From Cafeteria roenbergensis (lineage: Eukaryota > Sar > Bigyra > Bicosoecida > Cafeteriaceae): a stretch of DNA of 64,000 bases. The DNA is taken from NCBI GenBank assembly GCA_008330645.1, contig VLTN01000038.1, positions 1 through 64,000 of the forward strand. Reading direction: 5' to 3'. Below the pieces are notes generated by a model. The model was not told where the DNA came from and did not search any database. It saw nothing but the letters and a program-made list of their open reading frames with translations. Made by a program: the position numbers and the translations under genes. This document shows positions 32,707-64,000 of this stretch, in pieces (the stretch's first letter is position 1; each line of letters starts with the position of its first letter).

Positions 32707-33043
32707 CGTCCCTGCACCCGAACGCGCGGGGCGTGGGGAGTGCGGCTGCACGGGCAGCGGCGCAGGGCGCGCGGTTGCGGAACCGACGGCAAACATTTTT
32801 GCTGCTCCCGCTGTCGTTGCGGCTCTGCTCGCCACAACTGCGGGACTTTGGCAAAGCCGGCGCCACCGCCAAGTTGGAGCCCTAGTTGGAGCGCCAGAGT
32901 TGGGCGGCCCCTCTGCCAAGCGGAGGGCAACCGCAGCCGTTTGCGCTGTGTGTGGGTGCTGGGGGGGGGAACCCCACAGGTCGCGCGGCCAGCCCACAAC
33001 TTTGCGGGATCCGCTAGCTGGCGCTGCGAGCGGGCCGCCAGCC
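32707..33043. promoter_or_regulatory. Divergent promoter region, NLE1/BTB gene
   Basis: 337 bp between start codons. A near-duplicate pair AGTTGGAGCCCTAGTTGGAG lies at about 32,873-32,892; otherwise nothing recognised. Confidence 0.4.
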
Positions 33044-35515
33044 ATGGCCGGGACGGAGGTCGTCGTGTCCCTGGCGCGCCCCGGGGGCGGCAAGCCGTGG
33101 TCGGCCAGCGTGCGGCCGGACGCCGAGCTGCGAACGGTCCTGGCGGCGTACGCACGCCACGCCAACATCCCGCAGGCGGTGATGCGCATCGTGGCGCCCT
33201 CGGGCCGCGCCGTGGCGCCCGGCGAGTCGGTCGGGTCCCTGGGGCTGGAGCCCGGCGCCGTGCTGCGCGTCGTTGCGGACGCGTTCGCCCCGTTTCGTCC
33301 CTCCCACGCGGAGCACTCGGACATGGCCTTCCTGGTGGACGGCCACGAGTTCCTGGTGCACAAGTTTCCCGTGCTCAAGAGCGGCTCGCCCCTGCTGGAG
33401 GGCATGGTCGAGGAGTACGACGGGGACGCCGTGCCGCTGATGGTGCCGGGCGGGGCGCGCGTGTTCGACACGGTGGCGCGCTTCCTGTACCGCGACGAGG
33501 TGAACACGACCACCCTCCTGTCGCCGGCCCGCGCCCCCGCGGTGCGCGTCGCGGCTTCCTTCCTGCAGATGGACGCGCTCGCCGGCTTTGCCGAGTCCTA
33601 TCTCAGCGCCGACGTCCTCACCTCCAGGGACCCCACTCTGGCCGCCCTGGCGGCCGCCCTCGCCACGCCCGCAGCAGAGGCCCCCGAGAACGACGTCGTC
33701 CGCCGCGTCGCGGGCGCGCTCGGTCGGCACGTGCAGTGGCGCCGCCTCGCCGCGCTGGCTTCCGATGTGCAGCCCCTCACCTCCCTCACCGCCGGCCGGC
33801 CGGTGGCAGGCGCAGCCGCGGCTCCAGCAGCGACAGGCAGCGGCCCCGAGGCGGACGCGGATGCGGATGCGGATGCGGAGGCGGAGGCGGAGGCGGCGGA
33901 CGAGGATCCGGGTTCCGGTTCCGGCTCCGGCTACGCCTCCGCATCCGCGCCCCGAGACGGGTTCCCCGGGCAGTGGGCTCTGCAGGGCCTCCCTTCGCTG
34001 CAGAGCCTGCTGTCGCGCGAGGCGGCGGAGGCGGAGGCGGAGGCGGCTGCCGCGGGCGGGCTGCTGCGCCCGCGGCGTCGGCTGGGGGTCGATGGCGCGG
34101 AGGGGGATGCGTACGACGCAACGGGCTCTGCCGGGCCGGAGGGGGGCGGCGGGCGGTGCGAGGCGCTGGTGATGCGGCTGCCGCCTCGCCTGTTTCAGCT
34201 GGCCGCTGCGGCGGCCGTGGAGGCGGCGGCAGCAGCGGCAGCAGCAGCAGCGGCGGCAGCGGCAGCAGCGGCGGCAACAGCAACAACAACAGCAACAGCA
34301 ACAGCGGTGGCGCGGGCGGGTGGTGATGCCGAGCGCTCTGCCGGGAGGGAGCGATCGACGAAGCGGGCGGTTTCAGCAGCTGCCGCGCTGTTCGCGCTCT
34401 ACCGCCTGGCGATCGCGGCGTCGGCTGACACAGCTGCGGCTCTGCAGGCAGGCGTGCCAGCGGAGGGCGCAGTCCCTGGCTCTGCCGCCAGGGAGGCGGC
34501 GGTGCGTGCGTTGGTTGGCGCGGGGGGTCCCGAGTGGGCAGACGAAGAGGCTCTGCCATCGGGCTCTGCCGCATCGCTCGGTGAGGGTCCTTACGCGCAC
34601 CGGCTGGGGGAGCTCTGCTCCTGCGCCGACGTCCTCTCTCTGGCGGCTGGTGTGGGGGTGGCGCCTGCGGTGGGGACGCGACTGTGGCGCCTGACGGTGG
34701 GGGCAGCCGGGGAAATCGCGCGAAACCGCGCAGACATCGCGCGAAACCGCGCCTCTTCCGGAGCTGGCTCGTCCGTTGGCGGGCTGGACGAGCGGCTCTG
34801 CCGGGCAGAGGCGGCGCTAGGCAGCGTTCGCCGGCTGTGCGGCATCGCGCTGGCGCAGCGGCCGGACGCCACGCTGGCGCTGCCGCAGCCGACGCTGGCG
34901 GCGCTAGAGGTGGAGGTGGTGGCGGAGGCGCTTCGTCGGCTGGCCGGCGGGGCTGCCGCGAGGCGCCGGCTGCTGGCTCTGTTCGCTGTGGCCAGGGTCG
35001 GGGTGGATCCTTCCAGGTCCGCTGCGGGGATGGACGGCCTGTGGGCTGTGCCGGGGGAGAAGGGGTCAGGAGCGGGCGCTGGCTCTGCCGGCGTCGCTGC
35101 AGGCTCTGCCGGCAGAGGTGCTGGTGGAGGTGCTGGTGGAGGTGCTGGAGGTGGCGGCGGTGGCGGTGGCGGTGGCGGTGGCGGTGGCGGTGGCGGTGGC
35201 GGTGGCGGTGGCGGTGGCGGTGGCGGTGGCGGTGGCGGCGGAGGTGGCGGTGGCGGCGGAGGTGGCGGCGGTGGCGGTGCTGGCGGTGGCGGTGGCGCCG
35301 GCGTTCCGCCTGCTGCGGCGTCGGCTGGGCCGGGGCTGACGTTGGATGACTTAGCTGCGCTGCTCAGGGCTGCGAGGCCCCACTTCGGGGGGCCTGCCGG
35401 CGTGTCTGGCTCTGCCGTACCAGCCCACTTCGCTTCCTTTGGCAGAGGACCAAGACCAGCGTCGGCGCGAGGCGACCGCGGCGGCCACGCCGCCGACGAG
35501 GACGACGATGACTCT

Positions 35516-35571
<56 letters not shown>

Positions 35572-38035
35572 GGACGAGGACGACGATCTCGACGGGGACG
35601 GCGGCGCTGGCTTCTACGGGACGCTGCTTGCTGTGGCTGCCAGGACTATGACGTGGGCCGATGCGGGCTCTGCCGCTGACGCGGGCTCTGCCGCTGACGC
35701 GGGCTCTGCCGCTGATCCGGGCTCTGCCGCTGATGCGGGGTCTGCCGCTGATGCGGGCTCTGCCGCTGACGCGGGAGTCGGCACCGGAGCGGCAGAGCCG
35801 GGGGACCCGTCGGCGGCCGGGCAAGAGGCTGCCCTTCGAGCAGGCACCGGCTCTGCCAGGGGCAGTGGCTCTGCCAGGGTCAGTGGCTCGCCCACTTGCT
35901 CGCCGTCCGGGCCGCGGCCCAGCTCGGCAGAGCTGCGTCGTCGAGAAGAGTCTCTCCGGGCTCTGCAGGCGGAGGGCTTGGTGCGGCTGGACCTGCTGCC
36001 GCCGCGGACACTTCGCCTCGCCATGGCTCTGCCGGCTCTGCCGGCCCGCCCCTTCGCGGAAGCGGCTCTGCTGCAGAGCGAGGCGCTGGCGGCGCAGCTG
36101 GCTGCCACGCAGGCGCTGCTGCGGCGGGCGGGTGAGAGCCTGCGCGGCGCCCAGGCGAGGGCGGGGCTGTGCGAACACGCCCACCTGCCCGTGTGCACGC
36201 GCGTGGAGGTTCTGCGGTCGGCGGGGGCCTGGGTGCCCGGCCGCGTTCAGGCCTTCTCGGCGTCCACGGGGCTCTACGCAATCGAGTACGGGCCCGCGGC
36301 CGGCTCTGCCGGCAGAGCTGTTGGCGATGGCGGTCGTGGCTCGGGTGGAGGCGGCGGGGGTGGGGTTGAGCGGCGATGGTATGACCTGGCCAGGACTCGC
36401 TACAGACTGGCTGATGACGAGGAGTCGACTGGACAGGAGGCAGCTGACGGCCGGGCGCGCGCTGGCGACGTCGACGCCGACGTCGGTACGCCGGCCGCAC
36501 TCACGGGGCGGTCGGCAGCGAATCCTCCCGCCCTAGCCGGAGCAGCAGCCGACGTCACCAGCCACACCGAAGACGAGGATCCAGCTGACGCGTCAGCTGA
36601 CGCGTCAGCTGACACGCCGGTCGCAGGCCGCGTGCCGGCGCTGCGGCTGAGCGAACACCGATCGGCAGCGCCGGCGCAGCAGGGCACGGCCGCGAGAGGG
36701 GCGTCGAGGCTCCCGGCGGCTTCGGGCTTTGCCAGCGAGGCGGGTGGGCGAGGAGGGGGCGGCGCTGACACCGGCGGCGGCGGCGGCAGTGGCCGAGGCA
36801 GCGGCATCGGCGGCGGCGGCGATTTTGCCCCGTCACTGGGCCCGGCGCGCCGTTTGGGTGCCCCGACGGCGATGGTGGCGAGACGCTCGGCTGCTGGGGC
36901 GATGGCCGGCTCTGCATCCGTCAGCGTTGGCCGGAGACTCCGCACGGCCGAAGTGGCACCGGCTCTGCCGGGATCAACGCACCGCCCGCGTCTCTCACTG
37001 ACACCGCGAAGTGACTCTGCAGCAGAGCTCCCGAGAGCCGAGCACCGCTCTGCCTGGGTTGACGACGTCGGTCCACCGGGGGCAGCCGCTGCTGGCGCAA
37101 GGCGCCGAATCCCAACGGACACACCAACCAGCAGTGGCAGCGGCAGCGGCAGGGGCGGTGGTGGCGGCAGTGGTGGCGGTGGTGGCAGCGGCAGCGGCAG
37201 TGGCAGTGGCAGGGGCGGTGGGGGCAGCGTGTCGTCGGCGGGTTCTGTGGCGGCGATGGCGTCACCGCGGTCAGAGCGCCATCGTTCGGTTCCATCATCG
37301 CCGAGTCACGATGGACTCTCGGCGTCTCAGCGCGCAGGCATGAGACTCCGCGCGCGTGGACAGCACCCGCCCTCGCAGCACCGGTCAGCTGACGATCAGC
37401 TGACGCGGCTTCAGGAGCGCGCGCAGCAGTTGCACCGGACCCATCGCGGGTCGACGTCGTTAGGGTCAGCACCCCCGACGTCGGCGGCGACGTCCGCGTC
37501 GTCGGCCCGTGTTCCCAGGAGAGTGCCAGCCAACGCCACCACCGCCACCGCCGCCGCCGCCTCCGGCGCTGCCGCTGGCGCTGCTGTGCTCAGCGCCCCC
37601 GCCGCGGATCACGGCGCCGTCGCGGCTGAACGCGGCAGCGCCAGCACCGCCAGCAGCGGCGTCGGGCTCCGCCGCCAGCAGCGGCAGCAGCAGCGGCACC
37701 TGCCGTCACAGCGCGGCCCAACCCCCTACGGCGCCCCGGCCGCTACACACGCCCGCCTCCCCGCCGCCGGCGCCGCCCGCACGGCCGCTCCCCACGGCCA
37801 GTCCCGCCCCGAGCACCTAGCCGCCGCCTCCGCCGCCGCCGCCGCCCGCCTCGCCGCGAGAGAAATGCGCTCGAGAGCCGCCTTCGCCGCCAGCGAGGCC
37901 GACGACGACGCAGACAGGCTGGCGGCAGCCAGGATCCCCGACGAAGTGGCAGAGCCAATGTCAGGCAGGGCACTTCGTCAGGCGGCGAGGCAGGCCATGG
38001 AGGCGGCAAACTACGCAGCCGCGACCCGCCGCTAG
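33044..38035 (+). CDS. Ubl-BTB-NPH3-like giant protein
   Basis: One uninterrupted frame of 1,663 aa. Residues 1-82 look like a ubiquitin-type fold (EVVVSL.., VLRVVADAF). Residues about 92-195 are a BTB/POZ domain of the plant NPH3 type: GHEFLVHKFPVLKSGSPLLE, then MVPGGARVFDTVARFLYRDE, then RVAASFLQMDALAGFAESYL correspond to HLHKFPLLSRSG, GGAxxFELxAKFCYG and LRCAAEYLxMTE. A weaker helical NPH3-like region follows (about 370-660). Then come poly-Gly (690-752), poly-Ala (824-842), an 18-bp repeat (GSAADA units), a short coiled coil and a Tudor/SH3-like fold (VEVLRSAGAWVPGRVQAF, about 1,050-1,120). The rest is disordered. NPH3 proteins are CUL3 adaptors and signalling scaffolds; a CUL3 role here is inference. 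The tandem repeat at the 3' end includes the stop codon. Confidence 0.75.
35108..35300. repeat. (GGTGGC)n tract coding poly-Gly
   Basis: About 190 bp of nearly pure GGTGGC/GGCGGT units inside the BTB gene, in frame as more than 55 glycines. It is also nearly stop-free on the other strand. Confidence 0.92.
35513..35573. repeat. (GCC)n tract coding poly-Ala
   Basis: About nineteen consecutive GCC codons flanked on both sides by acidic Asp/Glu runs, within the BTB gene. Confidence 0.92.
35660..35767. repeat. 18-bp coding repeat, six copies
   Basis: Six head-to-tail copies of GATGCGGGCTCTGCCGCT (with small variations), coding DAGSAA. Each copy contains one CTCTGCC motif, so tandem duplication amplified the dispersed motif described in the findings. 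Confidence 0.93.
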
Positions 38036-38100
38036 CGGCAAACTACGCAGCCGCGACACGCCGCTAGCGGCAAACTACGCAGCCGCGACCCGCCGCTAGC
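38005..38100. repeat. 32-bp tandem repeat spanning a stop codon
   Basis: Three copies of a 32-bp unit (starting GGCAAACTACGCAGCC). Copy 1 contains the C-terminal codons and the TAG stop of the BTB gene; copies 2 and 3 lie just downstream. One base differs in copy 2. Confidence 0.93.
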
Positions 38101-38502
38101 GGCCACGGCTCTGCCACCGTGCCTTGCCGAGCAACGCTGCGCGCCGGTGCGATCGGGGCCACAGCGAGAGTTTGCGTGAATTTCGTGCCTGTGATGTGGA
38201 CGTGACACCGGCCTGACGCCTTCGTGAGGCGGTCTTGCGGCGCTGGCTGACGCGCTGTTCAACGCACTGAGAGCAACTGGTTCGGCGGCAGCTCGCGACA
38301 CACTCGCGCCCGCCCGCTGCGGCCGTCACGCACACACCGCAGTCGCGAACGCACGCGCTGGCGAGGCCATTCAGCGGCCATTCAGCGGCCAATCAGCGGC
38401 CAGTCAGCGCTCCTCTGGCCTTCACGCCGGCCGAATCCGAGCCGCCCGTCCTGCGGCCCTGCGGCCGGCCGCCTTGGCTGGTCGATCGTCTGGCCGGCAG
38501 AG
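38101..38502. other. Convergent intergenic region
   Basis: About 400 bp between the BTB-gene repeat and the NVL stop. It contains three adjacent near-copies of CATTCAGCGGC/CAATCAGCGGC at about 38,369-38,410 and otherwise nothing recognised. Confidence 0.5.
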
Positions 38503-40878
38503 TCACCTGCTCTTCTCTGCAGAGCCGTTTTCAGCGGGCGACGGCGTCTTGGAAGCATCAGCTGACGCCTTGGGCTCTGCCCTTGCTTGCGTCAGACGCT
38601 TCTCCATGGTCAGGTAGAGCCGCTGGTCCGACTTGGAGACGGAGGGCCGCACCCTTCCCAGGGCGCGCTCGAAGTGGGCCGCGGTGACCAGCACTCCCGA
38701 CGACGTGGGCACTGTCTGTGGCAGGTCTGCCGATCCTTCCAGCGCGGCTGCGGCAGTGGCGGCGGAGGCGGCGTCCATGGCAGCGAGCCGCTCTCGAAGC
38801 GCCGCGACGGCGGCTTCGCGCACGAGGCCGGCGAGGTCGGCGCCGGAGAAGCGGTCGAGGCGGGGGTCCCGGGCGATGGCGGGGATGTCGATGCCGGGGG
38901 CGACGGGGGTGTTCCTGACGTGGGTTCTGAGGATGGCCTCTCGGTCGGCGGGGTCGGGCAGCGGCACGAAGAGCAGCTTGTCGAGGCGGCCGGGGCGCAG
39001 CATGGCGGGGTCGATCATGTCCGGGCGGTTGGTGGCCGCCACCACGTAGACGTCGCGCCGGGAGTCCAGGCCGTCCAGCTCGGTGAGGAGCTGGTTGACC
39101 ACGCGCTCGCTGACGCCGCTGCCGCCGCCGCCGGAGCCGCGGCGCGGGGCTAGCGCGTCGAGCTCGTCGAAGAACACGACGCAGGGGGAGGAGGCGCGCG
39201 CGCGCGTGAATACCTGCCGAACTGCGCGCTCTGACTCTCCCACGTATTTGTCCAACAACTCTGGACCCTTTACCGAGATGAAGTTCGCGTGACTCTGGTT
39301 CGCAATCGCCTTGGCGACGAGCGTCTTCCCGCAGCCGGGCGGCCCGTACAGCAGCACCCCCGCCGGCACCGACAGCCCCAGATCCTCGTACACCTCTGGC
39401 CGCCTGATGGGCTCCACGATGGCTAGCCGCAGCTCCTCCCGCACCTCCTCCAGCGCGCCGACGTCGGCCCAGGTGACGTCGGGCACCATGGCGAAGCCCT
39501 CGCGGGTTCCGGAGGGCTGGACCTTGTGGAGGGCTGCCCGGAAGTCGCTCTCGGAAACGGACAGGTGAGCGAGCTGCGCGTCGCTCAGCCGCTCGACGCC
39601 CCGAAGGCGCTCGGAAATTTCCGAAAAGTTGCTCATCGACTCGGCAGCGGCAGCAGAGCGCGCGCGACGCCGCTCCGCCGCCCCCGGCCCAGACGTGCTC
39701 ATCGCACCCGACTCGCTGGGCGAGCCCGATAGCGCAGCAGCAGCAGCACTAGCAGCACCAGCAGACGACGAGGAGGAGGAGGGTGCTGGGGGCGACGCCG
39801 CGACGACAGCATCGTCGTCGCCGCCAGCATCGTCGTCGTCGTCGCAGGCGCGGTCGGCGTCGGCGTCGATCTCCGCAGCTGCCAGCGCCGCATCAGCGGC
39901 CGACTCGGCGTCGTCGTCTTCGTCGTCGTCGTCGTCGCCGTCGGCGTCATCCGCGTCGTCGTCATCCGCGTCGTCGTCATCCGCGTTGTCAGCTGACTCG
40001 TCGTCGGCAGCAGCGGACGATGCCGTGGCCGCGGAAGCGGGGGCGTCGGGCCCCGTTGGCGCCACGAACAGCTGCGTGAACACGCGGTGGACCGCGCAAA
40101 CGGCCGCCTCCCTGGTGAGGGCTTCGAGGTCGGCGCCGACGTAGCCGGGGGTGGCGCGGGCGATGGCGTCGAGGCTGATGTGGTCGGCGAGGGCCATGCG
40201 GCTGGTGAGCGTCCCGAGGATGCGGCGGCGGGCGGGCTCGTCGGGGATGGGCATTACGATCTCGCGGTCGAAGCGGCCGGATCGACGCAGCGCCCCGTCA
40301 AGGGCGTCGGGGCGGTTGGTGGCGGCGAGCACGATGACGGCTTCGCCGCCCGTCGCCGCGAGCGTGAGGCCATCCATGCTCGTGAGCAGCTGAGCGACCA
40401 TACGGCGCTCCATGGTGGAGCCGGCTGACTCGCGCTTGACGGCGATGGCGTCGATCTCGTCGATGAACACCAGCGCCGGGGCCTCCTCCCTTGCCTGCTC
40501 GAAGAGGTCCCGGATGCGCTTCTCGCTCGCCCCGCTCTGCCCGGAGACCAGCTCCGTCGCGCCCACCTTGTGGAAGGACACGCGGTCGCCCAGCTCGCCG
40601 GCGATGGCGTGCGCGAGAAGGGTCTTGCCGCAGCCGGGGGGTCCGTGGAGCAGGATGCCGCGGGGGGGGTCCACGCCCAAATGCGCGTAGATCTCAGGGT
40701 GAGTTAGCGGGTATTCGACCAACTCACGGACCGAGCGCAGCGCCTCGTCAACGCCCCCCAGGTGCGAGTACCGGGTCGTCGGCCGGCCGTCGAACGCGGC
40801 AGGGCCCTCCCCGTCACCGCCGTCAGACCCGCCCCCGTCACCGCCAGAGGTGCCGCCGCCAGCAGCGCCGCCGCCGCC

Positions 40879-40910
<32 letters not shown>

Positions 40911-41875
40911 GCGCCGCCCGCCGGCGGTGCCGCGCCATGGCCTCCCGAGCACGCTTGCCAGCCACCTCCATCACCGCGGCATCAGCCTCGGCGTCCGCGC
41001 TGCGGGAGCCCGTCGAGCCGGCAGCGCTGCGCGGCCGCTTGCCAGCCCGCCTGGGCCCGGCGGCGGGGGCAGTCGCCGGCGCTGCGGCGGCTGTCGGCGG
41101 TACGTAGAGAGCTCTGTTCAGGGCGTTGCTGTCCGCCTTGACGGGCGGCTCCCCTCGCGCCGCGGCGCTGGCCGCAGCCTCCGCAGCGGCCTTCTTGGCC
41201 GCCGCCGCGGCCGCCTTCTCTGCGGCCTTGGAGGGCAGAGACCCCTCCTGCCGCAGCTTGGAGATGACGCGCGTCACTGCGAAGAGGAATTCGGCCTGCG
41301 GGAGGACGCGGCGGGCCACCCGGACGGACGGCAGCAGCAGTGGCAGCGGTGGCGCCGAGCGGGGCCCCGCATCCGAGGCGCGCGGTGCGGCAATATTGCG
41401 GCGGCAACCCCATATTCATGACTCTCGGGGCGCTGTCAGTCCGCAACAGCACCGGCACGCGGGCCCGAACCCAGGGCAGCACGCCCCGCCGCCACGCGGC
41501 CGGCACACGGGCGGTGTGCTCGACTCAGGGCGAGGGGGGGCGCCGGCGCGGCCGCAACACAGGCAGCAGAGCACTTTGCCGCGCCCAGCCCCGCCGGGTG
41601 CGACGCAGCCTGACAGCGCAACGGACCGCGTCCGCGGCAACGCGCGCAAGGCTTCCCGCGAGGCGCAGTGCCCCCGCCCCGCCCCCCCGCTGGCGCGGGG
41701 CCGGGGAAGCGCAACGCGCCGACACGCTCACCTCGGGCCGGCGCTGGTACAGCGACGCAAACTGCTTCCGAAGCGCGGCTGCAACGTCCGCCGGGGCCGT
41801 GCGGGTCCCGCCCTGGATCACGGACTGCACCCGCGTCTCCAGGACCTTGTCGGCGAGCCGCCCCTTGCCCGACAT
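38503..41875 (-). CDS. NVL: NVL/Rix7 double AAA ATPase
   Basis: Two exons, 41875-41732 and 41295-38503, joining in frame (phase 0) to 978 aa. NVL/Rix7 is a nucleolar VCP-like ATPase that extracts factors from pre-60S particles. Exon 1 (MSGKGRLADKVLETRV..) and the start of exon 2 (AEFLFAVTRVISKLRQEG) form the small N-terminal nucleolin-binding-like domain. Two AAA modules follow: D1 with Walker A GPPGCGKTLLA (near residue 266) and Walker B ALVFIDEIDAI; D2 with YGPPGCGKTLVAKAIANQ (near 698) and PCVVFFDELDAL. Between them lies an expanded acidic/Ser linker with long Asp runs, and a poly-Gly segment precedes D1. The linker after D1 (NFSEISERLRGVERLS) and TLPTS-like end agree with NVL rather than VCP/Cdc48. 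Together with eL18 and NLE1 it makes three 60S-related genes in 16 kb. Confidence 0.92.
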
Positions 41876-42132
41876 GGTCGCCACGCGCAGTGCAGCTGCC
41901 GCAAGTGCCGGCCACGACCGACCAGCTCTGCCGCAAACGCCGCCGTAGTCGCCTCAACTGGGAGGGGCTCCGCCCCAGAGTTGCGCAGAGTCGAGCCTGG
42001 GCCGGGTCGCGAGGTTTGGGCCCGAAATACCAGCAACGGCACTTGCAGCAGCCGTCCAAGTCAGCGGGCTTTGCAGCGCGGGGAGGCCCCTGCACACGCA
42101 CGCGCGCTCGCGCTCGGCAGCCCCTTCTGCGC
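41876..42132. promoter_or_regulatory. Divergent promoter region, NVL/1,445-aa protein
   Basis: 257 bp between start codons. No specific motif was recognised; GC is slightly lower than in the flanking coding DNA. Confidence 0.4.
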
Positions 42133-43098
42133 ATGGCGTCCCGTCGGCGCGCACCGCCCGCCGTGGCCAGCGCGGCCCGGCGGGCGCACGGCGCAGCCAG
42201 CGCGGGGTCGCTCGGGGCGCGATCGGCCACGGCAGCGGGCGGGGCTCCTCTCGAAGCCGCGGTCGCGGAGGCGCTGGCCCGTGCCCGCATCGACCGCAGC
42301 GTGATGCGCGACGAGGCCGGTCCGTCGGCCCTCTCGCGCGCCGACCCGGAGGCCGCTAAGCGTGCGTTCACAGACATCGTTGGGATGCTCCGCGCAGCAA
42401 CAACCGACGCCCCGTCGCTGCGCCGCGCGTTCAACGCCGTGGCGAACCTCGCGGCGAGCTCGGACCGCCTCGAGACGGCCCCCGCCCCGGGTGGCGGCGC
42501 GTCCGTGCGCCCCACCCCCTTTTTCGCGCTGGTCGGCGAGGCGGAGCGGCGGCTCGCCTCCGAGGCCGCCCGCGCCGCCGAGCTGGCGGCAGAGCTCGAC
42601 CGCGCGGCCGCAGCGCGCCGCACCGCCGAGCAGCGCGCCGAGCAGTCCCTGGGCCGCGCGGCCGCGCTGGAGGCCCGGCTGCGCCTGCTGGGCGTGGCCG
42701 CCGAGGAGGACGCCTCCGCCGCCTCGCAGACCGAGGCCGTGCGTCGGGCCGACGACGAGCTTAAGACGCGGGAGAATGTCGCTCTGCGCTCGGACCTGGC
42801 AGAGCTGCGGCGATCCTTCGCGCGGCTGCACCGCGAAGTGGAGCGGTTACGCCTGGTGCGCGGGTCGTCGGTGGTGTCGAGGGCGCGGTTCGCGGCGATA
42901 GAGGCCGCGAGACGTCGGCAGCAGAGCGAGGCGCGGCGGGCGGCCGCGGCACAGACGCGCGGTTTCACGGCGGCGCTCGGCCCAGCGGCAGCAGCAGGAG
43001 TCGCTGGGGGTGCCGCTGGTGGCAGCAGCAGCAGCGGCGGCGCTGGTGCCGGCGCCGGTGCTGGCAGCAGCAGCAGCAGCAGCAGCAGCGGTGGCGGT

Positions 43099-43129
<31 letters not shown>

Positions 43130-46100
43130 AGGGAAGCAGCGGCGGCGGCGGCGGCGGGCCAGGTGGTGTCGGCGGGGGCGGCGGCGGCAGCGCCTCTGGC
43201 GGCGAGTCGGCCACTACAGCGCGTGTGGCGGCAGATGGCGGGAGTCTTTCGGGCACTGCAGCCCTGGCCTCCCGCCGCCTGGGCCACCCCGGGGCGCTGA
43301 TCGCGCCGTCGGACCTGCTGCTGCTCTACGCCGACGACGGAAGAGGCTCTGCCAGCGGCTCTGCCGCAGGGGGTTGGGGTATGGCTGACCCGGCGGCGCG
43401 GGGGCAGCGTGCCGCCGAGCGACTCCTCGAGCCGGAGGAGCGGGACGAGCTGATGGAGCGCAGACTGGCCGTGTCAGCTGACGGGCAGAGCCGCGGAGAC
43501 GGCGGCGCCGTCCCGGAGGCGCTGGCTCTGCCGGTGTGGTCGGACCGCTGGTGGGCGGGTGGCGAGTTTTCGGCGGCGTGGCGCGGCGGCGACGCGTCTG
43601 CATCTTTGTTAATGGACATATATGCGGCGTTTCACGACCGGCTTGCGGAGTTCCTGGATCCGCCCGCAGAGGCGGAGGAGGCGGCCCTAACGTCGTCGTC
43701 GTCGGATGTGGGGTCGGGCTCTGCCGGCGGGGGCGGGGCGGCGCTGCCTGGGGGGGTGTTGCCGGCCGTGGAGGCGGCGGCCGGCCGCATGCTGGGCCCG
43801 GGGCCGGCGGGTCTGGGCGCTGGCGCTGGCGGCGAAACCGCTTCCCTTCGCGTGCCTGCGGCGGCTCTGCCGGCACGGCCCGGCCTGCGGCTGCTGTCGC
43901 TGTGCCTGCACGGCGCCCCGGCCGCGGCGAGGGCGGATCTGGCCTTGGAGCTGTGGGAGACGGGGCAGGAGGCCCGGGCCATGGAGGGCCACCTGCGGGC
44001 GGCGATGGGGCGGGAGCAGCGACGGCTGGCGGGGGCGGTGCTCCGGCGCTACCGGCGCCGATTCGGGGCTGACCCGCCGATGATGGACGGCCGACGCGGG
44101 GCTGGGGCTGGGGGGCGGCGCGACGGGGCGGGGGCCGGGGTGGGTGCTGCAGGCGGCGTGTCGGAGCGCGATCAGCCGCCGGGGCGTGCGTTTTCCGGGA
44201 ATCTTCCCGGGTGGGGCGACGGATCTGGAGCCGGCGCCGGCGCGGCCAAAGGTTGGACCGTGGAGGACGTGCTTGCAAGCGTCACCGAGCAGTCACGGAT
44301 CGACCATTCAATCAACGGGAACCTTCCCGACCCTGACGGCGGTTTCGCCGGTGGCGGCGGCGGCGGCAGACCCGGCGGCCTGCCGCCCCTGGCCGTCACG
44401 CTGTCCCCGCGCGAAACCGCCCTTTTGTCCGTTGACAGCGAGCGCGTGGACCCGTTCGCAGTGGTTTCGGGGAGGCAGCGGCTGGAGCCGGCGGCGTGGC
44501 TGCGGCCGGTGATGCGGCGCTACAGGCTCCCCGCGGACTTCCCGCCAGGCGGCGAGCTGGGGCTGGGGCAGGCGCTGCGGGTGGTGTACTCGGCTCTGCT
44601 GGACAAACTTCGACAGGAGACCGCGGAGGCGGAGGCGGCGTCACGGGTGGGGCGGCCGCTGGGGGCGGCGGCAGCGTCCTTCGCGGAGTGGGTGTCGCTT
44701 GCCAAGGAGGCGGCCATTGCTGAGGACGCGGGCGGCGCGGACGCGGGCGGCGCGGCGGCGGGTGGGGTGGACGCGGGTGGGGCGGCGGGTGGGGCGGCGG
44801 GCGCGTCGGCGGCGGCGGAGACCAAGGATCCTTCCGACACTGCGGCGGAGACCAAGGAAGGTCACTCCGGCTCTGCCGCGCGGGTCAGAGCGCGGTCTCG
44901 GACCATCAGCTCCAGCTCTGCCGCGGGCGGCGACGGGGGCGGTGGCGGGCAGACTGAAGCCTCCCAGGAGGGGCCGGCTGGCCGATCGCGCGTCCCGCCA
45001 GTCGGCCGCCGCGCTGCTGTGGCGGTTTCACCGCTTGAGTGGCTGACGCTGTATCTGTGCCGAGTGACCGGCTCTGCGGAGGCGGCGGGGTCGACGCTGG
45101 TTGCAGTTGCAGATGCGCTTGAACAAGCCAGCGGCACGAGCGACCACGCGGCTCTGGCCTTGGAGACGCTGAGCGGCGTGCGGAGCCCCGGGGGGTTTCG
45201 ATACCTGCTGCGGTGTCAGCTGGCGCTGTCGGCGGCGGGCATCAACCTGGACGCCCCAGCGCAGCCAGCAGCAGCAGCAGCAGCAGCGGCGGGAGCAGCA
45301 GCTGCGGCGTCCGCAGAGGCCAAGGCGGCGGCGGCGGCGGCGGCGGCGGACGCGGCGGCAGTGGCGGCGGCGGCGTCGGTCAAGGGCGGGCGTCCCGCGG
45401 ACCTGTCCGCTGTGGCGGCGGTGCTGTATCCGCCGCCGCACGCGCCCCCGCTGCCCCGATGGCGCACGGCGTTCGCTGCGTACCTGACGCGGCAGACGGC
45501 CAGGGCGCGGGCGTCGAGGGGAAGTCGCAGACACGGCTCTGCCGGGAACGGCTCTGCCATGCGTGGGGCGGCGGCGGCGGATGCCGTCGGGTCCGTGTCG
45601 GAGGAGGAGGTGGCGGCGGCGGAGGCGGGGGCGGCGGCGGCGGAGGGGGCGTTAGCGGACGAAGTGTCTGCCCGGTCGTCTGGGGCTCTGCCGGAGCGGG
45701 CGGAGTCTGCCGGCGGGTGGGGAGACCGCAAGGCGCTTGGTCAATCGCTGGCGCAGCTCAGCGCCGCGGCGGCGAGCAGGCCGCGCGGTCGCGCCGGCAC
45801 GGGCCTGTCGGCTAGCGAGGCGGCTATGCTTGAGGGCGCGAACCACGAGTCGCTGGTGGGGTTCCTGGCGTGGCAGATTCGGCGCGGCGGGGCGGCAGAG
45901 CCGCGGCTGGCGCGATGCCAGCGCCAGCTGCTGCAGTTGTCACAGGGGGGCGCCGCGGAGTCGGGGTTACGTTTGTCCGAGGCGTTGCGGCTGGCGGGAG
46001 CCGTGCTGCGCCGCACTGGCACTGGGGTGTCTCTCACGCCGCTGCTGCGGTCGGAGGCGGTGCCGGTCGCGGCAGCGCGGTGGATGGAGCGCCAGCACGC

Positions 46101-46470
46101 CGCGATGGCAGCCGGTGGCGGCGGCGGTGGCGGCGGCGGGGGCGGCGGGGGCGGCGGCGGGGCGCGCGGAGCCCGCAGCCCGACGGACGACCCGACGCCG
46201 GTCGGGGCTGCCGCTGCGCTCGGCCTGCCCGGGGGCGGCGGGCCGCTTAACCGGGGGGTCGGCGGGGCGCGCGAGGTGCCAACGAGGCCAGGCTCGCTCG
46301 CAGCTGCGCCGGGCGGCGGTCGGGCGCACCAGCGCGCCAACCCGCCGCTCAACTCGTCCTCGCTCGATGTCACACCGCTGCCGGTGGGGTCCGTGGCGCT
46401 GGCTGTCGCGTACGTGGACCTGGCGGCCACGTTCGGAGACCGAATCGTCGGGGACTCGGGCACCGGCTGA
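42133..46470 (+). CDS. Large coiled-coil protein, unknown
   Basis: One open frame from the ATG at 42133: 1,445 aa. Residues about 130-290 are a strong coiled coil (EAERRLASEAARAAELAAEL and following Arg/Glu/Ala heptads). Poly-Ser and poly-Gly tracts follow (about 300-360). The rest alternates folded-looking helical blocks (for example LPVWSDRWWAGGEFSAAWRG, LLMDIYAAFHDRLAEFLDPP, LEWLTLYLCRVTGSAEAAGS) with Ala/Gly-rich linkers, and ends LDVTPLPVGSVALAVAYVDL. No known domain was recognised. The helical blocks and the composition resemble the BTB protein upstream and the giant protein at the right end, but no direct homology can be claimed by eye. It contains many copies of the dispersed CTCTGCC and GAAACCGC motifs. 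Confidence 0.7.
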
Positions 46471-47151
46471 GCCGGCTGCGGCTGCCGCGGCTGTGGTGGT
46501 GCTGTCGGCGGCGGGGGCGGTCTGCTGGTGACATCGCTCCGTTTGAGTCTTTGGAAGCGTGTGCCTGTTTTGTCATGCGCTTCCGCCCCACCCTCCCCCC
46601 CGTCGCAAAAACAACAACTTGTGTGCTGCCCACTGCCCGCTGCCCGCCGCCTGCCGCACCGCACGAACCATCGCTCGGCTAGGGATGTGGCGCGCCCGCG
46701 AGCACGCGCGTCTGCAGGGATAGGCGGGCGGGCAGGCACTCGCAGTGGCAAGTGAATCTTGGAGCGCCGCCGGCGCAGCGTGTGCGCGCATGAGCAATGC
46801 TGCACGAGAGCGCCCCAAGCTGCCGAACGCACAGCCGTCGCTGCTTAGCGCTACGCAGCCACACACAAGAGCCCAGCGGAGCGACCCCGGTGAGGGGTCC
46901 GACCAGGGCGTCCGACTGGAGGATCTCGCGGTCTCGCTAGCAGGCCGCCGCTCAACGTGCTGGGCGCGGGCTTCACGAAAGTCGTGCCTCTGACACGGCG
47001 CGCGTGTGGCGTTGCGATTGTGGGCGGCGCCTTGCGAGCAGTACGTGTGATGTTTGTTGTGATTGTGGGCGGCGCCTTGCGAGCAGCGCGTGTGATGTTT
47101 GTTGCGATTGTTGGCGGCGCCTTGCGCTCAGCGCGCGCGAGGATGCATCAC
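46471..47151. other. Convergent intergenic region with 45-bp repeat
   Basis: 681 bp between the stop codons of the 1,445-aa gene and the multipass membrane protein. Besides the tandem repeat at 47003-47133 nothing was recognised. Confidence 0.5.
47003..47133. repeat. 45-bp tandem repeat
   Basis: Three diverged copies of a 45-bp unit (start CGTGTGATGTTTGTTGTGAT), ending about 20 bp from the membrane-protein stop codon, so probably in its 3' UTR. The repeat is more T-rich than its surroundings. Confidence 0.9.
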
Positions 47152-53270: not shown

Positions 53271-53277
53271 ATGAGAT

Positions 53278-54234: not shown

Positions 54235-57103
54235 CTACGGCTCTGCCGGGGCACGCCTGACCCACACGCCCGCGTCCGTCAGGCGCCATCCCCGCTCCGC
54301 CGCAGCTGCGGGCTCGTCGGCCGGCACCAGCGCGTCCATCGGCCCGTGGAAGCACTCCTCCCCCGGCGCGAGCACGTTGAGCACGTCCAGCTGCAGGATA
54401 TCTGCGCCGCCCTCGTCGCCCAGCAGCGCCCCCACGTTGGGCTGCGTTCGCCCCAAGTCGCCGTGCACAAACTCCTTCACGTACGCGCCCGCCGACGTCA
54501 CCAGCCGAAGCACGAACCAGTGCGCGTTCACCCATCGCGTGCGCATGCCGTGGATGACCTTTGGCCGATCCATCAACGATCGACGGTGCAACACCCGCAC
54601 TGCGGCCCGACGGCGGGAGGGGGGCGGCACGATAGGGTGGTAGCGGGGCCAGCAAGAGAGCGGCGCGGCCGCCTCTGGCAGGTGCGGGGAGGAAATCGGG
54701 GGGGGGGGGGGGGTTGTTGCTGCAAAAAGCAACGAAGCTGCTGCAATCAGCGGCTGCGCGCACTCTGGCAAGGCTCGGTGGGCTGAATCACGGCGGACAA
54801 TTCAAATGACTGCGTGCAATAGTCGCTTCCAACCAGCGCCTTGGCTTGAAAGCCACTGCAGCGACCACTGTGCCCTCAGCCCCGCAGCCACCACAGCCCC
54901 CCAGGCAGCCCCAGCGCATACCAGCCCCAGCGCATACCAGCCCCCCAGGCAGCCCCGAGCACCCTCCCTCCGTGATCCGTGTCTCACCGGGCGTCGTCTG
55001 GCATACGGCCAGCTCTTTCACCGCGTCCAGCCGCTCCCTGAGAAACTCCGGCGTAACCGCGGCCTTGCATCGCACCAAGGCAGCGTATTCCTTTCGCTTG
55101 TCCCCCGCGCCCGCCGTAACCGCGTCGACGTCCGACGTTGTCGCCAGCCGCAGCTCTGTCACGGTCACGCCCTCCGGCGAGCGGTTGATTCGCATCGCGG
55201 CTTGGTCGATCGCAGCCTGTGACACGCTGCTGATGCGCGGCTGTTTCAGCTCCAGCACGAACGGCCGACCGCCCCCCAGCATCCGCACGTCCACGTCCTC
55301 GCGACCGGATCCGTGCAGCCGGCTGTCCGCTGCGCCGAATAGGGGGGCTAGGTGGTCGGCAGCCACCTCCTCCACGCTCCGGTAGAGCCCCTCTTGGCCC
55401 TCCAGCCGCCACGCCGTCTGCGACACCCCTCTGGCCGTCTTGCTGTACCGGCCGCGAACGAAGAGCGACTCCCGGCGAACTGCAACCCATCCTTCCGCCG
55501 GCTCTGCCGGGCACTTCGGGGGGCAGTTGAGTCCGGGAAGAGTGGCAAGCGCGTCGCCGAGCGACACGATCGACGACTCAACCTTTGCAAGCGTGACGGC
55601 GGCACAACGGACACGCGCACCCTCTTCCAGACGCAACACCTGTGCCTGCCCATGCGTGCCATCGGACCGAGACGCGTCGCGCATGTCAGCTGAACGCTTC
55701 CCACGGGGCCCGGACAGGGCCCCGCCGGCGTGATCAGCCGCACCGGCGTGATCAGCCCCCGCCGCCGCCGATGACGACGACGACGACGACGACGAAGTCA
55801 CCGCTGTGCCACTGGCAAGCGGGGTGCCATCGGCCGCCGACCCGTCCGAGGCCCCGCCACGGCCACGGCCACGGCCCCGGCCCCGGCCCCGGGTGAGACC
55901 CCCTCTGCCCCTGCCCCGGCCCCGGCCACGGCCCCGGCCACGGCCCCTCGAGGCAGCCTCCCACGCCCCCATCTCACCAGCTGCAATGGCAGCCTCGTCG
56001 GCAGAGCCGCTGTGCGTGAAAAACACGGACAGATCCGCCACTGCGTCGATCGCAAGCACCACGCCCGGCAGAGCCAGCCGCAGTTGCGCGATAAGCCGGT
56101 GTTTCACAGCTCCCTTCAGCGGCAGAGCCGACCACGACGGAGGGGGGGACATAGCCGAAGTGGGTTGGTCGGTAGAGCCGGGTGGAAGTGTCGCTCCCGC
56201 CTTCCTCGCGCCCAGCATCACGCACGCATCACGCACCGCTGCCGATGCCGCCATCTCCACACCGACCCGCACCCGGTCGACGTCCAGGCCCTTGGCGCGA
56301 AACCGCGCAACCACGTGTGCGGTCAGACGACGCACGGGGCCTCCCGCGACGAACTCGGCCAAGCGCGAGGCTTCCGACGCCGGGTCCGTGTCACCGTGCG
56401 AGACTGGCGCTGGTGGCGCCAAGGACGAGGATGATGATGACGATGACAATGATGACGATGACGATGATGACGCCGACGGCGGCGTCGCGGCGGCGGGGCC
56501 GCTGCCTGTGCCGCTCGCAGCTGCTGGCGCGGCGGCTTCGGTGAGGCTGCCGGCGAGCGTGGAGGGTCTCGATCCAGTCACGGCCGGGTCAAGCGCGGCT
56601 CGCTTGGCCGGCGGTGCGCTCGCTTCAGCATCAGGGTCGCCGTCGTCGCCAGCAGCGCCAGCCGGAGCGGCGGCGCGCGCTGCAGTCATTGGCGCGTCGG
56701 CTGCGGTGGCGGTTGCAGACGCCGTCACCGGAGCCCCCGCGGCGTGGGCGCCGGCAGGCGCATCCAAGCCCCCCTGGGGCAGGGCCAGGTCGTCGGTGAG
56801 CACGCCAAGGCACGCGCAGCAGTATCCCGCAGGCGCCACGACGCGGTTGGCGGCTGCGCCTCTGTCGGGCCAGCCGAGCAGCGTCGTGCAAGCGGCGGGC
56901 GACGCAAGGTACGCCCCCTCCGAGTCAATGCCCAGGAAACGCAGCGCGCAATACGGGCACACGCCGGCTGAGTGGAGGAAGGCGCTGAAGCGCGGCATCG
57001 CCTCAAGGCGAGAGCGGACCACGGCCGCGTCGCGCTCTGGCACGGCGACGAAGGGCGGCCCGGACGGGCCGGCCGCGCATGCAGTCGCAGCACTACAGGA
57101 CAT
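54235..57103 (-). CDS. PUS10: tRNA pseudouridine synthase PUS10
   Basis: Two exons, 57103-54988 and 54599-54235, joining in frame (phase 1) to 826 aa. Pus10 makes pseudouridine 54/55 in the T-arm of tRNAs; in animals it also promotes microRNA processing. The N-terminal zinc-binding domain shows VCPYCALRFLG and a later YCCACLG pair; a THUMP-like region follows. The catalytic domain has REPLF-like RRESLFVRGRYSKTARGVSQ and the active-site GREDVDVRMLGGGRPFVLEL (catalytic Asp near 602). The splice join gives QTTPVRVLHRRSLMDRP, as in human QKTPLRVLHRRPL, then AGAYVKEFVHGDLGRTQPN. Between N- and C-terminal domains about 200 residues of Ser, Ala and RG-repeat (384-414) disorder are inserted. The intron holds a 16-base G run and a duplicated 15-bp unit. 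Confidence 0.95.
54698..54713. repeat. G16 homopolymer in PUS10 intron
   Basis: Sixteen consecutive G on the plus strand (C on the transcribed strand), close to the acceptor of the PUS10 intron. Its length is prone to sequencing error. Confidence 0.85.
54899..54959. repeat. Duplicated CAGCCCC-rich units in PUS10 intron
   Basis: CCAGCGCATACCAGCCC occurs twice in tandem, flanked by two copies of CCCCCCAGGCAGCCCC, giving a mirror-like nested repeat near the PUS10 splice donor. Confidence 0.8.
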
Positions 57104-57255
57104 TGTCGCGCCTGCGCGGTGCGGGGAACAGTCCCGCGCGCTCAAGGGCGCCGAGTTGTGACGGCTCGTCGGCGGGCGCTTTGTGCTCGGGCAGAGCCGT
57201 GCTTGGCATCGGCAGCACCGGCCGTGCTGGCACACTGCAGGGCCGGTCGGCAAGC
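57104..57255. promoter_or_regulatory. Short divergent promoter, PUS10/giant protein
   Basis: 152 bp between start codons, one of the shortest in the window. No motif was recognised apart from one GGCAGAGCC copy of the dispersed motif at about 57,190. Confidence 0.45.
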
Positions 57256-60200
57256 ATGGGAGCGGGCGCTTCCCTCGAGAGGCTTGCCAGCCAGACTGGC
57301 GTGCGCTTGCCGCCGCACGAGCCTTCTCCCTGGGGCGCTGCTGAACTGTCTGTCAACGCGGTTCTCGGCCAGCCATTTGTTTCCGCGCCCAGGCATTCCC
57401 GCGGACTCCGGACGGCCCCCAGCGCTGACACGGGGGAGTACTTCGTCTCAGAGGTTGACAAGGCCTTTCTTCGTGCGATGGACGACCAAGACGCGGCGTC
57501 TATGGCCGCACTGGAGCACGAGGGGCCCGATGCCCTCGGCCGAGTGTTGCGCACTGCCGGCCGCAGCCAGGCGCAGTCTGCGGACCCGCCGAGCCCGTTC
57601 GCCGCAGACCTCGAGCAGCGCCGGGCCCTCGCCAGGTTTGCCCTTTGCCTTGGCAGTCTGATGCAGGACCGGGCCGTCCTGGTGTGCCCCGCTTCTCGCG
57701 ACTGGCACGAGGCGCCGCGCGTTGGCTCCAGGGTTGTGCTGGAGACGAATCGGTGAGATTGCTCGGCCGCCACCGCCCGGCCCGTGCCCGACGCAGCCCG
57801 CCGCCACAGCCCTGCGGCGAGTGGTGTCCGCCACACCAAGCGCGTACTAGCCTCGCGCCTGCGCCCCGTCCCGCCGGGCCCCGTCATGGCCGATCCCGAG
57901 CGCAATGGCTCGGGTCTGGGCGGCTGCTTGCAAGCAATTTCTCGGCTTGAAGCCGCTGCGGCGCGCGCCGCCCTCTGAGCCAAGTCCGATGGATCCGTGT
58001 CGCCCAACATTGCCTTTCGCCGCCCCGGGCCGCAAGCGGCGCTGGGGGCGAGAGAGGCTCGGTCGTGCAGCAATGGCTTTGCCATCGCACGATGTTCATT
58101 CGCAGCGAATTCCGAGCTTGGCCCCAGTTGCCCGTCGACTGATCTCCCAGAGTCGCGCAAAATTTCCTATTTCAATGCCTGAATCCTAGTTCCGCGAGCC
58201 CTCCCCAAACCCTCCCTCTCTCTCCCAACACCCGTCCGCCCTCCCAACCCGCTCGCAGGCGAGAGTACCCGGTGCACGAGACCGGGCAGGTCACCCGCCA
58301 ATCGGGCTCCACCTTCACCGTGCGCTGGCCGAGCGGCAAATCCACGCTGCACCTCTGGCGCACCCCGCCCGAGTCCGAGGCGCCCGTCAGACTGTCCTCG
58401 CTCACCGTGAAGCCTGCCGGCTTCCTGCCCGATCTGCATCGCAAGGAGGACTGGCAGAGCCGGGTCGACGGGTGGGCGGCGCGCAACCCCGAGGCCGCCG
58501 CCGCCATCGGCCTCAAGCGGGCAGAGCTGCTTGCCGCGCTGGACCCCCGCTCGCTCGGCCACGTGTGGACCGCGGCGCGATCTGAGCGACTCTGCGCCGC
58601 CCTCGGGCGCGTGACACCGCTAGCAGCGCGCGGCGCCGGAGTGTCGCTCCGGCTCCAAGAGCCCCAGAGCGCCGCCGCGCCGGCATCGGCGCCGGACCCC
58701 GGGGCGGCGGGGACGACAGCGCCGCCTGTAACGGCAGGCGTTGAGGGCCCCGTGGCCCGCTCCCCACCACCGGCCTTTGGCAAGCCTGGCTCCGGCGACC
58801 CGCCGTCCAGCTGGCCAGGCAAGCCTGGCTCCGGCGACCCGCCGTCCAGCTGGCCAGGCAAGCCAGCCTCCGCCGACGTCCTGTCAACAGGGGCTGTGGA
58901 GCTCCTGGTGGAGCTGGTGGCCCAGACCGCCATCGACGTTGCAACCTCCACCGCAGCGAGCGCCGGGGTGTCTCTCAATCGGCGCCAAGGGCAGAGCCAC
59001 TTGCCCCACGCCCTCGCACGCCCGTCAGCCAAACGTGGCGAAACGGTTGACGGCAAGTCGTCAGGTGAAACCGCTCCGGAATCTTCGCTGCCGCTGTCGG
59101 CCGCCGCCAGAGCCGCATCCGCCACGGTGGCGGAGCTGCGAGCCGCTGCCGCAGCGGTGGTCGAGGCGCAGGTGGCAGCGGACGACGCGGCCGACTATGC
59201 TGCAGCGCGGCTCAAGCTCGCAGCGCAGACGGGCTCTGCCGCAGACGCCGCCCCCACCAACGCCGCCCTGCAGGCGGAGAAGGAGTCAGCTGACGCCGCG
59301 GCGCTGGCAGCCGACAGGGCAGCGCTGGACGCGGAGCTGGCCGCGGAGGCGGCCGGGGCCAGGCTGGCAGAGCTCAGCCGGGGGGGTTGCCACTTCGTCC
59401 CGGGGCTCGGCGGCCAGGACCCGTTCGTGGCAGCCTTCTGCGAGGTGGCTCGGGCCGTTTGCCGCGCTGCTGTGGCGGAGCTGGCGGAGGTGGCTGCCGC
59501 CGTCACCGACGAGGGCGAGGCCGCGACAGCCATAGCAAGCAGGGCCCACGCGGCCTCGGCCGCGCTCGGCGCCGGCGTCACCGGCAGGGCGCTGGTGCCG
59601 CTGGTGTCGGCTCTGCTTGCGATCGATGGGGTGGTGCCGGTCGCGGTGCTAGTTTTGCCAGCGCTGACTCAAGTCACTCGGTGGCTGGCAGCCATCGTTG
59701 AGGCTCTGCCAGACGCGCGCCTGGCAGCGTCGGCCTCCTCCGTCGCACCCGTGCGGAAGCGCGGCCGCGCTCAGCCGACGGACCACTGGCTGCTGTCCCT
59801 GGAGCGGGCATGTGCCTCGGTGGGCGCTTCGATGGCGGCTCTGGTGGTGTCAGCGGTTTCGCCTAGTGAGGAGGAGGCGGTGCAGGACCGTTGGATGCAG
59901 AGCGGCCTGCTCAGTGCAGGCCTCAGCCAGGGGGCGCTCACTTCGCTGGCAGAGCTCGCATCCGGCTCGGGGTCTGACCCCAGCTGGTCGTGGGGCCGGG
60001 CCGTGGCGGAAGACTCGACGGGCGAAACCGCTGTTGTGGCCGCAGACGGCTCCGTCGACGAGGCGGAGTCTGCGCGGCAACTGACGGGCTCCGTGAAACC
60101 GCTGTCGAAATCGTCGCGGTGGCACGCTGTGGCCATGACGAACCGAGCGACTTCGGTTGACGTCGTGAGCGACTCCGACGTCGACACTGTCCTGGCCAGC

Positions 60201-63200: not shown

Positions 63201-64000
63201 GGTCAGACCCCGCTCGCAACTCCGCCGTTGTCCGCATCGCTGGGCGTTGCACAGCTGGCCCAAGGTCAGACTGAGCGCGCCGCTGCGAGAAGCGCCGTGT
63301 TCTCGCCGCTGCCGCCAGCCCACGACGGCGGGCCGCTCCTAGCCTCCCCGCTGGCCACGGCGCCCCCTGGCCCTCTCACCGCCACTCCTGGCTCTACCGA
63401 ACGAAGTGGCTCTGCAGCACTTACCGGTGGCGACAGGCGCCCTGGCGCGGTCGGTGGACCAACATCGCCCGGGCGGGCTCCTGCGCCGAGCCCCGCCCGC
63501 GCCCGTGTGCCCGACTCCGAACGCGTCGCGTCGGCGGGCCTTCAGGGGAGTGCGGCACCGCTGGTTGATGGCCGAACAGCCCACGTCACTCGTGTTATGG
63601 GGACGGCCGCCTGGGGAATGTTCCGTATCATTGCTGCAAGGGCGTGCGGGGCGCGGCGCACTCCGCGCGAAACCGCCATGGCACTGCTGGGAAGCGACTT
63701 TGACCCGACTCTCCGTGGCGAAACCGCTGGCGTTGCAAGGGTGGGTGTCATCGCTGACGTCGACGGTGACGTCGAGCAGGGCCAGCTCTACCGAGCGCCA
63801 TTGGGCGGATCGACAGCCGACGGAAGCTGCCGGCCACCGGCTGGCCTGGCTGCTGCAGCATCTGCCGGGGCTCTGCCGGCAGAGCCGTCGCTCGGGGCGT
63901 CGCCGTCGGAAGTGGTGTTTGAAGCCAAAATCCGCCTTGCTCTGCCGGGAACGGCTCTGCCAAGGGCGGCGCTGACAGGCGAGGTGTTGGTCGAGGAGAT
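57256..64000 (+). CDS. Giant protein with MIB/HERC2-like fold, N-terminal part
   Basis: Exon 1 is 57256-57752; exon 2 starts at 58259 and stays open to the end of the window, giving over 2,000 residues of an incomplete protein. The splice (CG|GTGAG ... CTCGCAG|G) restores frame and joins GSRVVLETNR with REYPVHETGQVTRQSGSTFT then VRWPSGKS, a small beta-barrel like the MIB/HERC2 domain of ubiquitin ligases; the assignment is tentative. MGAGAS at the start fits an N-myristoylation signal. The remainder is Ala-rich and helical with Gly/Ser linkers, for example HAALWAATQDFQMQDAEFLL and LPAHYLADTLTTSQVAQLYR, an acidic run (DDDDDDD) near 63,075 and a Pro/Arg-rich disordered region. No catalytic domain is seen; it could lie beyond the window. 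Many copies of the dispersed DNA motifs occur in it. Confidence 0.7.

Follow-up and report, generated by a model that had tools for sequence, protein, structure and literature searches.

Several over-represented short words crowd the coding sequence of particular genes in the nuclear genome of Cafeteria roenbergensis

What makes a short DNA word recur dozens of times in a nuclear genome, in genes that appear to have nothing else in common? The question is raised by the first 64,000 bases of a 338-kb contig (VLTN01000038.1) of the bicosoecid Cafeteria roenbergensis, named C. burkhardae in PMC8547959. This whole stretch is called the window below, and the word is GGCTCTGCC, a non-palindromic 9-mer of the CTCTGCC/GGCAGAG type. 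The assembly contains 36,303,456 bases in 167 contigs, and no family of chlorophyll-binding proteins turned up in it. Outside the window, 23 stretches of ten kb, designated by L and a number, were sampled; eight of these (L009, L012, L014, L019 and L024-L027) were picked near known palindromes, and two (L005 and L006) adjoin the window. Genome-wide counts are independent of this choice, and each is controlled by the word read backwards. Open frames were taken from stop to stop on the genomic sequence.

In the window, whose GC content is 0.71, GGCTCTGCC occurs 66 times on the two strands, whereas the average over 100 dinucleotide-shuffled sequences is 3.1 and the maximum 8. A preliminary description of this DNA had estimated about five occurrences per 64 kb from composition and had judged the actual number to be many times higher, which the shuffles bear out. 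Its statement that the motif occurs dozens of times on both strands is likewise borne out, as 58 of the 66 copies lie in 33001-64000, 42 on the plus strand and 16 on the minus strand; five lie in 20801-33000 and three in 1-20800. Genome-wide, the word is found 10,998 times on both strands compared with 994 for its reversal, that is, 30 versus 2.7 per 100 kb. The 13 stretches that were neither picked near palindromes nor adjoin the window contain 22 copies in 130 kb, or 17 per 100 kb against the 30 of the genome. The excess of words is real, and it is genome-wide.

For the fine analysis, we used 11 open frames (66,933 bp) selected for their density, with 3.1-8.3 words per kb. These frames probably represent eight genes, since three pairs seem, from their coordinates, to adjoin in one frame across stretch borders (window 58143 and L005, L025 and L019, L026 and L027). 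The 159 copies of GGCTCTGCC in these frames lie far outside the range of synonymous shuffles that keep both the protein and the codon usage (n=200, mean 9.2, maximum 18), a type of comparison that had been proposed in advance, and codon bias is thereby ruled out as the cause in this set. Under the same shuffles, control words are observed 2, 1 and 8 times against means of 2.3, 2.0 and 10.0. When the copies are divided by phase, the sense phases hold 70, 4 and 28 of them against 1.29, 0.07 and 0.66 expected from codon permutation, and the antisense phases hold 26, 12 and 19 against 0.64, 0.27 and 0.57. Because this amounts to a 33-57 fold enrichment in each of the six phases, the pattern is blind to strand and frame, with the protein acting merely as a filter. 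Among TCT codons flanked by codons on both sides, 70 of 268 lie inside GGCTCTGCC. The motif had been thought to force the use of the otherwise rare codons TCT and GCA; in the dense frames GCA does rank last among the four Ala codons, and the label fits TCT only roughly, as it ranks fourth among the six Ser codons.

The dense frames do not form a protein family either. An all-against-all BLASTP comparison of 304 stop-to-stop frames of at least 300 codons joins no two of them, one dense frame having a weak match (3e-6) in L021. A search for paralogues that might show gains and losses of words, made with the frame at 32387-38035 of the window, returned the frame itself and short, mostly simple-repeat-like matches. 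The word-rich genes contain HECT, ORC2, histidine kinase/response regulator or Pus10 domains in Pfam, or none, so that the genes are as varied in function as the preliminary description had them, and one protein repeat family does not hold the motif. The words are confined neither to one phase in the 11 dense frames nor to one family in the 304-frame comparison, and phase symmetry and BLASTP together rule out a protein repeat family as the cause in the examined set.

The words also enter conserved domains. The clearest case is a giant word-dense open frame that starts at 58143 on the plus strand, runs to the end of the window at 64000 and continues in the same frame through L005:2-8617. It is about 14.5 kb long in total, has no evident intron and ends in a HECT ubiquitin-ligase domain, for which the closest PDB entries by E-value are HECTD3 and HACE1. 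Within this domain, GCTCTACC codes for Arg-Leu-Tyr at residues 93-95, GCTCTGCA lies within Gly-Ser-Ala at residues 156-158, a second GCTCTACC lies at residues 160-162, and CGGTTTCG codes within Ala-Val-Ser at residues 193-195. All four words lie in gap-free columns of the HECTD3 alignment; the HACE1 alignment has a three-residue gap between residues 160 and 161. These gapless positions indicate that at least some copies arose by substitution. In a receiver domain, CGAAACCG codes for the Lys-Pro of LPKPTG, a pair that we take to be a conserved receiver feature. Overall, the domain stretches of word-rich genes contain 9 words in 2,451 bp and those of word-poor genes 4 in 9,045 bp; the ORC2 stretch used (residues 1000-1150) exceeds the best Pfam stretch (1079-1150), and without ORC2 the former count is 7 in 1,998 bp. 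The likeness of the six phases, the shuffle mean of 9 against 159 and the gapless HECT positions show that duplex DNA carries the pattern, and they suggest that something reads the DNA itself, beyond the encoded proteins.

The main word is one of a set, which comprises at least seven words without evident relation and the one-base variant GCTCTACC. Genome-wide, GCGGTTTCGC is found 2,499 times against 249 for its reversal, and the second word GTCAGCTGAC, which is palindromic, in 428 places against 43. In the sampled stretches, GGAAGGATC, TTGCAGTTG, CGAAGTG and GGTCTGACC are also raised, as is GCTCTACC, which is one base off part of the main word. Many words of this vocabulary are present in most or all of the 11 dense frames. 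When nine core words are masked, 83 kb of dense sequence lose 5.2% and 129 kb of sparse sequence lose 0.7%; in the dense sequence, an excess of GACGTC, AGCGAC and CGATCG, as well as of GC-rich triplet repeats, then remains. In the window, for example, two copies of GTCAGCTGAC lie within a 12-bp tandem repeat at 36592-36613 (no strand), and two copies of the third word, GCGGTTTCGC, lie 21 bp apart at 34720-34750 on the minus strand.

The shape of the site can be approached through its palindromic forms and its variants. The 14-bp palindrome core CTCTGCCGGCAGAG is found exactly at 35104, 36304 and 63871, where perfect inverted pairs had been reported (35104-35117, 36304-36317 and 63871-63884). 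The extent of the symmetry differs among these sites, to none of which a strand is assigned: GGCTCTGCCGGCAGAG at 35102-35117 is palindromic over 14 bp only (35104-35117), GGCTCTGCCGGCAGAGC at 36302-36318 over 16 bp (36303-36318), and GGCTCTGCCGGCAGAGCC at 63869-63886 over the full 18 bp. In the genome, the core occurs in 137 places, compared with 0 for its reversal and with 10,998 copies of the word, so that the motif cannot be said to appear often as an 18-bp palindrome. For comparison, a prokaryote collection of 257 billion bases has 18 stretches with the 18-bp palindrome, and a viral collection has one.

One-mismatch neighbours of GGCTCTGCC are about two-fold over-represented (512 versus 265), in a test in which two of the four control words have the motif as their own neighbour and are not clean controls. 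The deviants concentrate at the first base (G to A, 79 versus 7.2) and the last base (C to A, 35 versus 6.2; C to T, 33 versus 7.9), so that the core is about GCTCTGC. In the flanks, 49 of 229 copies of the word have GGC directly after them, and 13 of 229 have GCC directly before them. Abutting units were collected as matches of GGCWSWGCCGGCWSWGCC, and the 50 listed of 89 comprise 20 head-to-head, one tail-to-tail and 27 tandem arrangements (some overlapping), together with two one-letter variants. The head-to-head polarity suggests a two-fold symmetric reader of that form.

The density of the words is a property of individual genes. Along 84 kb of the contig it is high at 34-38.6, 42-46, 55-57, 58-73 and 79-84 kb and near zero at 24.6-33.8 and 73-79 kb. 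The earlier impression that the motif becomes much denser from 20.8 kb on does not survive, because there is no step at that position, density follows single genes, and 24.6-33.8 kb is almost empty. In the stretches sampled, frames of 4-8 words per kb stand beside frames of 0-0.6. Beyond the end of the giant HECT frame (L005:8617), the next 1,382 bp lack any word of the set. Twelve stretches that flank dense frames yield 12 words in about 18 kb, short open frames included, and the 10.8 kb without open frames of 200 codons, where GC is lower (0.61), yield three main 8-mers. On a larger scale, over the first 839 kb of contig 1, GGCTCTGCC (plus strand, 100 places listed) and GCGGTTTCGC (50 places) both show over-dispersion at bin sizes of 5-100 kb, and in 20-kb bins the two are correlated (rho 0.39, reached by 0 of 41 shifts). 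On contig 5, GTCAGCTGAC (15 places) shows over-dispersion at bin sizes of 20-100 kb but not at 5 kb.

Neither gene length nor GC content at third codon positions (GC3) accounts for this density. Length is rejected as the cause, as frames of more than 3,300 codons in L016 and L023 hold just 2 and 5 words; its correlation with density is 0.38 (rho) over 91 frames and -0.17 in 46 frames from unselected loci. GC3 is rejected with a rho of 0.02 over the 91 frames; in pooled bins there are 2.2-3.4 words per kb below GC3 0.8, down to 1.0 above 0.85.

Our best guess at the mechanism, which is unproven, is that DNA-binding proteins recognise the words in duplex DNA, and that the words have accumulated within the coding sequence of some nuclear genes, for the most part through base substitution; we give this a probability of roughly 0.38. 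Under such a mechanism, sequence-specific proteins would occupy the word-dense gene bodies, and the reader of GGCTCTGCC would probably be able to bind as a head-to-head dimer on GGCTCTGCC joined to GGCAGAGCC. Occupancy of the gene body might serve the chromosome, for instance in chromatin state, replication or recombination. A copy would be kept if it improves occupancy, and the protein sequence would only filter which phases survive. A bolder version, in which the nucleus uses at least seven duplex-DNA words, written by substitution in chosen genes and bound by dedicated proteins, as a sequence-encoded mark of gene bodies rather than methylation, seems doubtful to us.

Several points weigh against recognition sites. 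No binding protein is known for the words, and a search for one was not made. The placement of the words, in gene bodies and rarely in short intergenic stretches, is the reverse of that of ordinary regulatory sites, and no expression proxy (GC3 or length) marks the dense genes among the 91 frames. The words are unequal in strength: a 14-base extension of the TTGCAGTTG word, with at most one mismatch, is much weaker genome-wide (147 versus 63). A small minority of copies share longer flanks. The 11 frames were chosen after their density had been seen, and the gene classes of the domain comparison were likewise set afterwards. Finally, the single strain analysed does not separate selection from a mutational or repair bias.

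This last point leads to the alternative that survives best, molecular drive without function, which we regard as possible though on the unlikely side. Biased repair or gene conversion would turn near-words into words, and gene density would reflect where the process acts. Processes of this kind have been modelled for HIP1, a highly iterated palindrome, and for bacterial uptake sequences. The strand and phase symmetry of GGCTCTGCC is in keeping with drive, and so is the over-representation, rather than under-representation, of one-mismatch neighbours, mostly at the first and last base; the same end bias is given for HIP1 in PMC4390886, and over-representation falls with mismatch load for uptake sequences in PMC1939737. 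The end bias, however, is equally expected from a 7-bp recognition core. In addition, drive requires a single bias for several unrelated words, and next to dense genes there are almost no words in intergenic DNA and short frames (12 in about 18 kb). A C5 DNA methyltransferase domain (PF00145) has no match in the assembly, in a search that covered no adenine methyltransferases and in which the positive control, an M18 peptidase, was found at its known place. CpG is not depleted in dense sequence (1.09).

It is improbable that the words serve pairing within mRNA, by which complementary words in one transcript would make long mRNAs compact. Such pairing would limit words to transcripts and make both orientations useful, and the words do drop off at gene ends. 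Dense coding sequence is also slightly more stable than its synonymous shuffles (mean z -0.53, 45 of 68 windows), whereas sparse genes show no folding effect (mean z 0.08, 29 of 62), and three of four one-base variant pairs lean as G-U pairing allows (observed/expected, small counts). However, the antisense strand of dense genes folds likewise (mean z -0.67, 40 of 68 windows; sparse genes, 0.07 and 29 of 62). Since the antisense strand is affected equally, folding looks like a by-product of inverted words and is rejected as the cause. Moreover, G-U pairing is not clearly supported, the fourth variant pair leaning the opposite way, and the orientations are unbalanced in some genes (21:4 in window 32387-38032).

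Even less probable is that the words are remnants of a short unit that was mobile or became inserted, or of longer repeats that have since decayed. Some copies do lie in tandem arrays with 9 and 18 bp spacing, and among distant pairs of the 8-base core about 0.5% agree over at least 8 further flanking bases, compared with 0-0.07% for four control words; because of these pairs, a minority of copies may have been copied. Against this, most flank sharing stops within a few bases, words occupy gapless HECT positions and domain stretches, and, among the best 60 of 109 matches, no long dispersed repeat joins the dense stretches. Overlapping words aside, different words keep no constant offset, which rules out a decayed long repeat with a fixed word order. 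For a dispersed repeat or transposable element, long flanks or a body should be common to most copies, and they are not. There remain protein repeats (Gly-Ser-Ala and similar peptides) or codon bias, which we dismiss for the examined set, as the Gly-Ser-Ala phase is commonest (70 of 159) but the phases, shuffles and variety of families described above all refute them. None of codon use, protein repeats and mobile elements accounts for the words in this set.

How do the words, taken as recognition sites or otherwise, compare with known iterated words? By analogy, they appear to work like bacterial hyper-iterated words, yet they lack three of the five HIP1 features considered and the one uptake-sequence feature examined. 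HIP1 is spread through most genes of a genome, whereas the Cafeteria words are gene-specific, as the contrast of neighbouring frames indicates. The unit here is mainly non-palindromic (137 palindromic places against 10,998 words), although GTCAGCTGAC is palindromic, and we deal with a nucleus and with several words. Common to both are the strong excess over composition and codon expectation (66 versus 3.1, 10,998 versus 994 and 159 versus 9.2) and the gathering of one-base deviants at the first and last base (for HIP1, PMC4390886). The HIP1-type behaviour proposed in the preliminary description is thus apt as an analogy (a short word, acting at the DNA level, with end-base deviants) and fails as an identity, given the non-palindromic 9-mer, the several words, the gene-specific density and the lack of a C5 methyltransferase domain match. 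HIP1 and the alternate HIPs of cyanobacteria are short GC-rich words far above expectation, modelled via biased base substitution (PMC4390886).

According to PMC1939737, about a tenth of uptake sequences occur as inverted repeats, these sequences are thought to grow by point mutation, they are more frequent in non-coding DNA than expected, and over-represented eukaryotic oligonucleotides have similar frequency curves. Like the uptake sequences of Pasteurellaceae and Neisseriaceae, the Cafeteria words are short and lie on both strands; they differ in that there are several of them and that non-coding DNA holds almost none (in about 11 and 18 kb, some of it at lower GC). In bacteria, Chi and related words that serve recombination or segregation are hyper-abundant oligomers recognised in duplex DNA. 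The Cafeteria words share the hyper-abundance, and for them duplex recognition is a proposal; their density is gene-specific and some are palindromic.

Among the literature matches listed, the papers on highly iterated palindromes and hyper-iterated words concern bacteria, and those that match the letters of the word look unrelated, judged by titles and abstract starts. In their retrieved parts, the Cafeteria genome papers PMC6972860, PMC8547959 and PMC10945749 make no mention of such words: 'motif' is absent from the first, and in the other two 'palindrom' is absent and 'motif' refers to promoters or proteins. A multi-word, gene-specific and phase-blind system in a nucleus would mean that a code at the DNA level can outweigh codon choice in shaping coding sequence. 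For this species, which hosts CroV and mavirus, it is also relevant to gene prediction, codon-usage statistics and selection tests. Selection and drive are open to a direct test by strain comparison, as assemblies of four strains have been published.

The other word-dense parts of the window are as follows. The gene body at 34000-38600 (plus strand) lies within the 1882-codon open frame 32387-38035, which has no Pfam domain and includes an 18-bp tandem array containing the word at 35663-35775. A 1618-codon frame at 41614-46470 (plus strand) also has no Pfam domain, and the frame with the Pus10 C-terminal domain, at 54788-57352 on the minus strand, holds 11 words (4.3 per kb). The contrasting stretch at 24650-33800, which has one word of the set, includes a frame of GC3 0.92 at 30955-33597 on the minus strand. 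An AT-richer stretch (50746-53246, GC 0.57) has no open frame of at least 200 codons, no GCTCTGCC and none of the words.

Outside the window, L025 4892-10000 and L019 1-4848 (contig 12, about 70.9-80.8 kb, minus strand) are apparently one giant, word-rich hybrid histidine kinase gene, with a weak HisKA match, HATPase_c and a response regulator. Another word-dense frame, L019 6550-9999, has its ORC2 match near the end, after about 1,000 residues. The frames L018 2302-6996 and L027 5251-9999 are paralogous (53% protein identity), are related to the CLU/TPR frame at 4813-9183 of the window and hold 0 and 1 words.

Tandem repeats of other kinds are also present. In the window, nine perfect copies of a 21-bp repeat lie inside a Casc1-domain frame (23838-24025), and minisatellites with 91-99% matches occur at 12734-12888 (44 bp), 38003-38103 (32 bp), 47011-47135 (45 bp) and 58779-58877 (39 bp). 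At L009 7967-10000, units of about 18 bp are repeated in tandem over about 2 kb, reaching the end of the stretch.

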